Shown here piece after piece: positions 36,156-47,644 of a DNA stretch of 64,000 bases. Every line of letters starts with the position of its first letter. Within the stretch, counting starts at the first letter, position 1. Origin of the DNA: Heterostelium album PN500. Its lineage: Eukaryota > Evosea > Eumycetozoa > Acytosteliales > Acytosteliaceae. Below the pieces are notes generated by a model, which was not told where the DNA came from, made no database searches, and worked only from the letters and a program-made list of their open reading frames with translations. The DNA lies in NCBI RefSeq assembly GCF_000004825.1, contig NW_008805074.1, positions 868,001 to 932,000 on the forward strand. Reading direction: 5' to 3'. The position numbers and the translations under genes were made by a program.

Positions 36156-36559
36156 ATTTGATCAAACTATAGCATAGGATCTTATATCATAGGATGTAAA
36201 TGATGAAATCAAATTAATGTAAAAATTTTTAATAAAAAACATTCACCATCACTTGAGTTATTTTTAATCATTTTTAATTAATTGTTTTTTTTTTGTTTTT
36301 TATTTTTAATTTTGAAAAAAAACAATTTAAATTTTTTTGTTTTTGAATTTAAAAACCCATGATCAATGATACACACGATCGCAATCTATCTTTGGGAATT
36401 TTGATCAAAAAAAAAAAAAATATGATCTGTATTAGTTAGCATGTTTGTTTTACAGGCAAAAGTCTTTTATAATTATTATAAACTAAACAAAGCAGAATGA
36501 ACAAAATAGTGTAAATCTATATATTTTTATCTTTTTATTATAATGATGTTTGGTGTTGA
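36156..36559. other. Upstream of PP2C-like gene and 3' flank of U2
   Basis: 404 bp holding the PP2C-like gene's promoter side and the 3' flank of the first U2 gene. A/T runs dominate. From about 36518 the sequence matches the flank of the second U2 copy. Confidence 0.45.
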
Positions 36560-36778
36560 GGTGTACCTTTGATACTCTGAATAAACTGCAATACAGAGCA
36601 AATACATCTATGAGAAATATATAGGATTTACCAAATATAATTCTGATCTCATAGCCTCGAGATAAATTAGATTAATCAAAGAATGCCATTTCCACTTGGG
36701 TTGGCAGAAAGAGATTAAGCTTTCTAGAACAGATACTACACTTGATCAAAGCAATTTAATGCAATTTGAAGAAGTGAT
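36560..36778 (-). ncRNA. U2 spliceosomal snRNA, copy 1
   Basis: Minus-strand RNA of about 219 nt. Its 5' end reads ATCACTTCTTCAAATTGC, followed by GATCAAGTGTAGTATCTG (36730-36750), the near-invariant U2 segment containing the GUAGUA branch-site-recognition sequence. Further on come an Sm-site-like ATATTTGG (36631-36638), a terminal hairpin CTCTG..CAGAG with TTGCAGTTTATT in the loop (stem-loop IV type), and the 3' end GGTACACC. U2 pairs with the intron branch site in the spliceosome. The 3' end is set by analogy with other U2 RNAs and may be off by several bases. Confidence 0.92.
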
Positions 36779-40508: not shown

Positions 40509-40560
40509 GAATGGTACAATTGATCGAATTGAACAGTCGTTGAGTTTTTAAAAATGAAAG

Positions 40561-40700
40561 TGGTAATATCGTTACATTATCCTTGTACTACCATTACTGA
40601 TAGTCAAGGTGTAGAGCTTGATATTACCCTACAGTTCGTGTTTTTTATTTATTTATTGTTGGAGCAGTTCAGCCACAGGCCGGCTGAGATGGCCATCATT
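40561..40700 (+). ncRNA. Candidate structured RNA, unit 1
   Basis: GGTAATATC (40562-40570) pairs perfectly with GATATTACC (40620-40628). Inside, CCTTG-t-ACT pairs with AGT CAAGG, forming a nested hairpin. AGTTCGTG and a T-run follow (40633-40646), then a second hairpin TCAGCC/GGCTGA whose loop is ACAGGCC, then ATGGCCA. The same order recurs in unit 2, with different stem bases but pairing kept. Strand is chosen from AGTTCGTG followed by T, which resembles a Pol III end. No known RNA family recognised. Confidence 0.4.
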
Positions 40701-40880
40701 TTGAGAAAGGGATGATGTTCCCATTGATTTGGTTTGGCAGACTGAGTATTTAAGCCACTTAGAATTCTAAGCGGGTACGTGTGTAAACCACTCGGTGTTC
40801 ACCTATGATAAGCCTGCTAGTTACTGTCGGTGTCAACTTCATGGGGTCCAAGATAGTATTGAATACTAGATTATTTTTTT
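40700..40880. other. GC-richer linker with palindromes
   Basis: Between the two RNA-like units the DNA is less AT-rich. It has CATCAT..ATGATG as a small hairpin (about 40695-40716), the perfect 14-bp palindrome CTTAGAATTCTAAG (40758-40771) and a 27-base T run (from about 40873). No ORF is supported. Confidence 0.5.
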
Positions 40881-40900
40881 TTTTTTTTTTTTTTTTTTTG

Positions 40901-41020
40901 CAAAAAAGATTTGTTGACTCATGATCAGTCAACAAATTGCAGGTATTGATATTAACCTGCTAGTTCGTGTTTTATGTTATATTTACATTCTCACATAGGC
41001 CGTGAGAAATATAGCCAATA
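40901..41020 (+). ncRNA. Candidate structured RNA, unit 2
   Basis: ATTTGTTGACT (40909-40919) pairs with AGTCAACAAAT (40927-40937) over a 7-base loop, followed directly by GCAGGT (40939-40944) pairing with ACCTGC (40955-40960). Then come TAGTTCGTGTTTT and a hairpin TCTCAC/GTGAGA with loop ATAGGCC, then ATAGCCA. This parallels unit 1 about 330 bp upstream; the second-hairpin stems differ between units while the loop is kept. Could be a tandem small-RNA gene or part of a repeat element. Confidence 0.4.
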
Positions 41021-41129
41021 AAATGTTATTATTATTATTATTATTATTATTTTAATTATTATTATTATTATTATTATTGTTATAAATTATTAATTAATAA
41101 GTTGAGTAGTATTAGGATAGAATAGATCT

Positions 41130-41350
41130 AACAGTAGTTGCGTGTTGATGAACAACAGTATAAAGTGGTGGCACTTAGTTGGAAGGATTAAGATTCCAAT
41201 CAGATTTAAATTTACGCGTTAATGCAGAGCAATCGACAGTGACTCCTTGGGAGATTGAATTAGCGATCGTGAAGTTAAGCTTGTGGTAATTGGCAGAATA
41301 CTATATTAGTACGTGGCGCGCTCAAAAGCTAAAAAAAAAAAAAAAAATCT
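41130..41350. other. RNA-gene-like stretch with A run
   Basis: A less AT-rich 200-bp block between the structured units and the tRNA. It holds GCGATCGTGAAGTTAAGC (41263-41280) and TTAGTACGTGG (41306-41316), which recall two conserved parts of 5S rRNA (GAAGNTAAGC and TTAGTACTTGG), but the spacing is about 11 bases too long and the rest does not match. A 17-base A run follows at about 41331-41347. It might be a Pol III-derived retroposed sequence; unproven. Confidence 0.3.
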
Positions 41351-41388
41351 GAAAATCGCATGCGGACTAAATTCTTTTTAAAATGATA

Positions 41389-41478
41389 TGGAGAAGGAGA
41401 GGATCGAACTCTCGACCTTAGCATTGCTATGTATACTGTTATATAAGTACTACACTCTACCGACTGAGTTACGTCTCC
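41389..41478 (-). tRNA. tRNA-Ile(UAU) with intron
   Basis: Minus strand. Acceptor GGAGACG pairs with CTTCTCC (one mismatch) and the discriminator is A. D arm ACTC AGTCGGTA GAGT. Anticodon stem TAGTA/TGCTA with CTTATA before a roughly 17-base intron, giving anticodon UAU. T arm GAGAG TTCGATC CTCTC. The anticodon region resembles intron-bearing tRNA-Ile(UAU) genes of animals. A TTTT stretch just downstream can serve as Pol III terminator. The gene reads the rare AUA codon. Confidence 0.9.
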
Positions 41479-47064: not shown

Positions 47065-47425
47065 AAAAATCATTTAAAATAAATAAATCGTTATCAAATA
47101 TCGTAAAAAAAAAGGTTATTTATATTTTTTGTTTGTTGAATTAAATTGACATACCGGTAGATATAGTTACCTCTCATGATAGCACTATAGAAGTAATAGC
47201 AATAACTATAACTAAAACAAATATGTATGATATATCGAGTTAATCAGAGTGCACAGAAAAATAAACTTTGAATATAAATAAATATTTGTATGTTAATTGA
47301 TCGATTAAACTAATGAACAAATTAAAAAAATGGTAAATGAATATGCGAAATTAAAATTAATCCTACAAATAGTGTAAATAATAAAATTATATATTTTTAT
47401 CTTTTATTTTGATGTTTGGTGTTGA
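47065..47425. other. Spacer and 3' flank of U2 copy 2
   Basis: 361 bp of AT-rich sequence after the beta-helix gene. The repeat shared with the first U2 locus begins near 47386. Confidence 0.45.
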
Positions 47426-47644
47426 GGTGTACCTTTGATACTCTGAATAAACTGCAATACAGAGCAAATACATCTATGAGAAATATATAGGATTTACCAA
47501 ATATAATTCTGATCTCATAGCCTCTAGATAAATTAGATTAATCAAAGAATGCCATTTCCACTTGGGTTGGCAGAAAGAGATTAAGCTTTCTAGAACAGAT
47601 ACTACACTTGATCAAAGCAATTTAATGCAATTTGAAGAAGTGAT
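47426..47644 (-). ncRNA. U2 spliceosomal snRNA, copy 2
   Basis: Same 219-nt RNA as copy 1, including ATCACTTCTTC at the 5' end, GATCAAGTGTAGTATCTG, the Sm-site-like ATATTTGG and 3' GGTACACC. Within the RNA I see one difference: ATCTAGAGG here against ATCTCGAGG in copy 1, which removes the closing C-G pair of a small hairpin. Both copies keep all functional motifs, so both could be active. Confidence 0.92.

Follow-up and report, generated by a model that had tools for sequence, protein, structure and literature searches.

A SINE and an L1-like LINE with related 3′ ends of similar predicted fold, downstream of tRNA genes in Heterostelium album

Two paralogous units, at positions 40561-40700 (unit 1) and 40901-41020 (unit 2) of the window, the whole 64,000-nucleotide stretch of Heterostelium album PN500 DNA analysed here, are probably the minus-strand 3′ ends of a SINE/LINE pair, in which a structured 3′ tail would be read by the enzyme of the LINE. 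The two units are homologous, the elements they belong to end in poly(A) and are bordered by target-site duplications, and they lie downstream of tRNA genes on the same strand. In the window one element is nested in the other, and their 3′ ends have a predicted fold in which compensatory changes preserve the pairing.

Two repeat families in the host genome

A preliminary description, made from the sequence alone, had placed the two units at these positions, and both are present there, each with the common AGTTCGTG plus T-run, the hairpin with an AGGCC loop and the GATATTA element attributed to them. The units are homologous and have many copies in the genome. When the host genome (32.9 Mb in 39 contigs) was searched with window positions 40541-41040, at least 66 matches were obtained, with 40 of the 136 candidates scored, and these belong to one or the other of two repeat families, family A for unit 1 and family B for unit 2. 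As the T-run stands at the left end of the copies in both families, the minus strand is the sense strand, on which the T-runs read as poly(A) tails.

Copies of family B run upstream, on the minus strand, into a reading frame. In the longest LINE copy read (L050), which is interrupted, APE (PF03372, 3.7e-07) and RT (PF00078, 2.5e-20) domains were found in separate open pieces, and the best PDB match of the RT was human L1 ORF2p (E 4e-14). A CXXC...H...C pattern, a candidate for the C-terminal zinc finger of TRE3-like LINEs, was seen by eye in the translations; Pfam reported only RVT_1 for that piece. No intact copy was present among the loci read. A genome search with the RT piece of L050 yielded 80 matches, 66 of them at 80% identity or more and often several per copy, and 8 at 37-42% identity that represent other LINE families, seven of these 8 in open frames of 1107-1133 aa. 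Unit 2 is the 3′ end of a 5′-truncated L1-like, TRE3-like non-LTR retrotransposon. Truncated copies are often scrambled (L036, L045, L054 and others), with distant pieces of the element adjoining each other at sites downstream of tRNA genes. In a second LINE family (L091, L116) the 3′ end contains GATGGTAAATCCATC, and the ORF2 frame, of ~1109 aa, is open in several copies; at L116 a tRNA gene precedes the 3′ end of this family, which stands ~80 nt downstream.

Unit 1 belongs to a SINE, a short non-coding retroposon with duplications and a 3′ A-tail, which occupies at least 41 places in the genome (from hand-merged searches in which fragments of 38 bases were counted). A full copy measures ~417 nt plus the A-tail and comprises an apparently tRNA-like head, a body and, at the 3′ end, sequence related to the LINE 3′ UTR. 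The copies at L012 and L013 show 100% identity across all 417 nt, and the duplications flanking them are different, TGATCTACC and TTTTTTTGTGATTT; this identity indicates that the family was recently active. Duplications were scored as the longest string common to the two flanks, in copies with an A-tail and with the 3′ end in hand, and reached at least 8 bp in 8/23 of these copies, compared with 6/506 mismatched flank pairs used as a control. Among full-length copies they did so in 6/7 (L012 and L013 as above, L015 TCAAAAAAGT, L016 AGGTGAACAA, L017 CAATAACG and L018 TGTATATAATA), the exception being L020 with 6 bp. L022 (TCACTGCTT) was excluded from the control because its aligned 3′ end was shorter. 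Most other truncated SINE copies had a flank match of just 3-7 bp, which is not above chance.

The SINE head contains an A box at position 13 and a B box at position 59, 46 bases apart. Comparisons of the head with tRNAs of the genome scored 38, 36, 36, 31 and 31, values that 0-1 of 500 shuffles reached (0 of 500 for the best score of 38); the two comparisons scoring 36 concern one tRNA sequence. Over 16 tRNAs, 0-3 of 500 shuffles were as high for 7, and more than 10% of shuffles were as high for 6. Rfam returned no tRNA match in the head of the one SINE copy searched, even at E<=1; the one match in that copy, to a riboswitch (15 bits, E 0.76), was taken as chance. Because of its tRNA-like A and B boxes, the SINE itself may be a Pol III transcript. 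The head also holds TTTTT at positions 72-76, a possible Pol III terminator.

A nested insertion beside a tRNA gene

All features of the arrangement in the window lie on the minus strand. The presumed insertion target is a tRNA gene with an intron-like insertion at 41389..41478 (Rfam RF00005, 52.5 bits), which was absent from the output of ARAGORN run with bacterial settings. About 25 nt downstream of this gene is a GC-rich near-palindrome, CCGCATGCG (41357..41365), of a kind also present at most tRNA genes sampled, and 65 bp downstream of the gene the SINE starts with a 5′ piece at 41296..41323 (element positions 102-129, 96% by blastn). The body and 3′ end of the SINE, at 40576..40873 (element positions 117-413), are 99% identical to the L012 copy; its own poly(A) has been lost. 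Between the two SINE pieces stands a 5′-truncated LINE at 40900..41295, made up of the end of ORF2, an (AAT)n tract and the structured 3′ UTR and 98% identical to the L050 LINE, with its poly(A) tail visible as the plus-strand T-run at 40874..40899. As read in the sequence, the LINE is bracketed by 13-base target-site duplications, TAATATAGTATTC at 41296..41308 and TAATCTAGTATTC at 40861..40873, with 12/13 bases equal. These near-identical flanks show that the LINE jumped into the SINE downstream of the tRNA gene, and the LINE-SINE arrangement in the window is a nested insertion.

The same succession was seen at L009, L010 and L011 as well as in the window: the poly(A)-bearing 3′ end of a LINE adjoins, or nearly adjoins, a SINE that is truncated at 117-136. 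At those three loci it could have arisen by nested insertion or by template switching. Elsewhere in the window, Rfam identified two minus-strand U2 snRNA genes, at 36556-36775 and 47422-47641, ~11 kb apart.

A predicted folded 3′ module common to LINE and SINE

The LINE and the SINE have a common sense-strand core of 84 positions, consisting of hairpin H1 (loop GGCCTGT), AACACGAACT and hairpin H2 (loop TAATATCAA), which is followed by a third hairpin, H3, of mostly different sequence between the families and then by poly(A). When one LINE copy and one SINE copy were folded on the sense strand, three hairpins were predicted in each, in the same order, with z-scores of -4.37 and -4.09 respectively (0/200 shuffles each). 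On the antisense strand the SINE gave a z-score of -0.53, and the LINE, which also folds well in that direction, -3.84.

In the window, fold and alignment together place the LINE hairpins H1 at 40988..41008, with the loop GGCCTAT in this copy in place of the usual sense loop GGCCTGT, and H2 (GCAGGT/ACCTGC, loop TAATATCAAT) at 40939..40960, and the SINE hairpins H1 (TCAGCC/GGCTGA, sense loop GGCCTGT) at 40669..40687 and H2 (sense GTAGGG/CTCTAC, loop TAATATCAAG) at 40611..40632. Fold prediction adds an H3 to each unit that the preliminary description had missed, 11 bp at 40909..40937 in the LINE and 12 bp with one bulge at 40581..40609 in the SINE.

The stem difference first noted between the two units, TCAGCC/GGCTGA vs TCTCAC/GTGAGA, distinguishes the families as a whole and is not a peculiarity of two single copies, and the structure with its compensatory changes does look selected. 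Of the loop given as A(C/T)AGGCC, the conservation stands, with the sense form GGCCTGT in 24/30 distinct LINE and 16/22 distinct SINE sequences at hand, and the C/T difference proves to be a change of the window copy. The second loop, TAATATCAA, is present in 30/30 distinct LINE and 18/22 distinct SINE sequences at hand. A 5′ hairpin likewise exists; in its conserved form on the plus strand, unit 1 has GTAGAG/CCCTAC and unit 2 has GCAGGT/ACCTGC, with two further double changes between the units. The stretch GGTAATATC (40564-40572), a potential pairing partner of GATATTACC, is not part of the element.

A gapped exact search with the core pattern ACACGAACTN{4,12}TAATATCAA, which would overlook any family whose core has mutated, gave at least 80 exact genomic matches and 0 for a reversed-pattern control. 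The matches listed comprise, by length and hand count, 57 of LINE type and 23 of SINE type, and they show two 5′ stem types plus five single-copy variants, with no third type. A covariance model of the shared 3′ module was also built.

Covariation was measured on an alignment of 8 LINE and 8 SINE rows, picked for diversity. Across 14 pairs, 93.8% of cells were paired, vs 29.5-56.7% in six slid versions, and the covariation score of 0.410 and two other measures exceeded all 500 shuffles. The number of double-change pairs (6 vs a shuffle mean of 5.2) was equalled or exceeded in 175/500 shuffles, and the number of further pair types in 500/500. Alignment A2 allows 64 comparisons of a LINE row with a SINE row, of which 22 were tested; in these, 4-6 of the 14 pairs differ on both sides and still pair, the number being five in 18/22. 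Random placement of equally many stem changes gave pairing as good with P 0 to 0.009; for bases drawn at random in the same columns, P was 0.0009 to 0.053. Differing columns between LINE and SINE rows made up 12-13/28 of stem vs 1-2/15 of hairpin-loop columns, an excess that is not clear either against hairpin-loop columns (Fisher P 0.015-0.086) or against all unpaired columns (Fisher P 0.010-0.135). As all of the compensatory changes fall on the one LINE-SINE divergence, they are evidence for pairing and do not form a covariation series. Within families no independent compensatory events were found; the copies seem to decay neutrally, which leaves within-family covariation uninformative.

Position beside tRNA genes

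The flanks of 47 distinct element loci, longer versions included, were scanned for tRNA genes at the Rfam gathering score; the scan excludes L060, L063-L065, L067-L091, L094, L095 and L099, some of which overlap the 47. A tRNA was found in 31 of the 47 loci, and in 30/31 tRNA-bearing loci a LINE or SINE was found downstream of the tRNA and oriented like it, whereas on that strand none precedes the tRNA in the sequence scanned. The exception is L066, where the LINE is opposite in orientation to the tRNA. The first element pieces lie 34-278 bp from the tRNA 3′ end, and 34-135 bp from it in 28/30. In the 39 loci with equal flanks (mostly 500 bases on each side), 18 hold a tRNA (11/20 + 7/19), in every case upstream of the element and in the element's orientation. 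These positions are the pattern of TRE3, which is described as inserting 40-150 bp downstream of tRNA genes in the same orientation (PMC5911963).

A GC-rich palindrome (CCGCATGCGG, CCGCCTGCGG, TGCGCGCA and similar) was observed downstream of tRNA genes in L010-L120 and in the window. With a pattern that was defined after inspection of the first tRNA set, it was found 17-42 nt downstream of 27/31 tRNAs of element-bearing loci and 21-36 nt downstream of 16/20 other tRNAs, chosen away from the LINE/SINE matches then known, two of which (L109, L116) had LINE sequence nearby after all. Several of the misses hold a near-match such as CCGGATGCGG. As controls, the pattern occurred at 0/51 within 75 nt upstream of tRNAs and in 3.1% of random 75-mers from the loci. 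The palindrome may be a transcription or targeting element. For D. discoideum the literature describes instead an ex B box, which follows the internal B box at a distance of ~100 bp downstream (PMC5911963), and a palindrome of this kind was not found in the portions available of PMC13063481 and PMC5391098.

Proposed recognition of the 3′ tail

In the SINE/LINE pairing that we favour, the ORF2 protein of the LINE would bind the folded 3′ tail, mainly through the conserved loops and the linker, and would then begin target-primed reverse transcription at the poly(A), thereby mobilising the LINE's own RNA and, in trans, that of the SINE. Stem sequences would be free to drift while pairing holds. 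In the zebrafish LINE ZfL2, loop identity is reported to matter most, and stem swaps are tolerated and disrupted stems are not (PMC4176376); loops that are kept and stems that drift but stay paired are the expected trace of such loop-based recognition. A poly(A) end is compatible with structural recognition because silkworm SART1 needs its 3′ UTR and yet ends in poly(A) (PMC3747384). That this SINE, with its tRNA-like head, reaches tRNA genes by imitating, through fold and loop and not through the sequence of the stems, the three-hairpin tail of a tRNA-targeting LINE, which would make it the first dictyostelid SINE shown with its partner, is a proposal that we hold with evenly balanced confidence.

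Two alternatives deserve weight, each of them unlikely. The LINE could recognise poly(A) alone, as mammalian L1 is thought to do (PMC3747384), with the SINE having taken over the 3′ end of a LINE and the hairpins being inherited baggage; both elements do end in poly(A), and the covariation is entirely on one branch. But conserved loops on stems that have changed on both sides (P mostly <=0.006 under either null), together with an H3 that differs between the families in most of its sequence, are hard to account for unless the fold is under selection, which leaves this reading improbable. No more probable is a different partner for the SINE, namely another LINE with SINE-type stems that is extinct, unseen or the second tRNA-associated family. 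The stems of the SINE do differ from those of the LINE, further families exist, as the 8 RT matches at 37-42% identity indicate, and the family of L091/L116 has the L116 copy close downstream of a tRNA gene. Against such a partner, no third stem type appeared among the 80 core matches listed, although a mutated core would escape that search, and the core was absent, by eye, from the 3′ ends read of two other LINE families.

Far less probable still is the proposal of the preliminary description, a new stand-alone, Pol III-like family of structured RNA genes transcribed from the plus strand, which could draw on the structure, the many copies and the lack of an Rfam match at gathering score in 40561-41020, where no known family had been recognised before either, but is contradicted by the minus-strand poly(A), the target-site duplications, the 5′ truncations and, for unit 2, the LINE ORF2 upstream, to which the weak folding of the SINE plus strand can be added. 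With units that are retroposon 3′ ends, joined in the case of unit 2 to LINE coding sequence, the reading as a non-coding RNA family is largely refuted by a condition that the preliminary description itself had named, a match to protein-coding or known repeat sequence. Equally remote is the idea that the host has co-opted the SINE module, for instance to provide tRNA read-through transcripts with a regulatory tail, which would suit the same-orientation position downstream of tRNA genes but not copies that vary in age, truncation and position and resemble ordinary insertions.

Comparison with known systems

Under the pairing of this SINE with the LINE beside it, the SINE sits, like its presumed partner, at "safe" tRNA-adjacent sites in a compact genome, and it does so in a group that is open to assays of LINE targeting. 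The literature searched yielded no comparable SINE from a dictyostelid, and none of the publications retrieved for Polysphondylium and SINE concerned, by title or abstract, a SINE of that genus. RepeatMasker copy numbers under "SINEs" are given as 88 for D. discoideum and 57 for D. purpureum (PMC4683709). As far as our searches show, this SINE, its three-hairpin module and its tRNA-adjacent position are new within that literature.

Neither UnaL2 nor ZfL2 is known to target tRNA genes. Both are stringent LINEs, UnaL2 with an eel SINE as partner, for which a 3′-tail stem-loop is reported as required, and both belong to the L2 clade, unlike the L1-like LINE described here; UnaL2 ends in TGTAA repeats (PMC3747384).

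Among the closest known systems are the TRE3-like non-LTR retrotransposons of dictyostelids, members of the L1 clade whose APE and RT domains and same-orientation insertion downstream of tRNA genes are also found in this LINE. TRE3-like sequences have been reported for P. pallidum (PMC5006619), where the word SINE does not occur and where the text available gives the published elements neither a structured 3′ UTR nor a SINE partner. In D. discoideum, TRE5-A.2 is described as non-autonomous and as depending on a LINE that targets tRNA genes for its mobilisation in trans (PMC5633606); it is a LINE variant without ORF2 and not a tRNA-headed SINE, and TRE5 elements lie upstream of tRNA genes, whereas the elements here lie downstream.

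Finally, the L1-clade pairs of plants and algae, likened here by description, likewise consist of an L1-clade LINE and a SINE with a common 3′ end. In monocots the L1/SINE pairs have a common 3′ hairpin with a conserved loop and compensatory stem changes, and in Chlamydomonas SINEX-3_CR and L1-1_CR have a common 3′ end and both carry poly(A) (PMC3747384), so that, according to this source, an L1-clade pair with a compensatory hairpin and a pair with a common poly(A) tail were already known. The same paper argues for a model in which recognition by structure is an old trait of the L1 clade. That model would gain support from an L1-like LINE that occurs outside green plants and whose 3′ fold is kept by a SINE. 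Unlike the plant and algal pairs, the pair described here has two conserved-loop hairpins and a third hairpin, both of its partners lie downstream of tRNA genes, and it is apparently amoebozoan.
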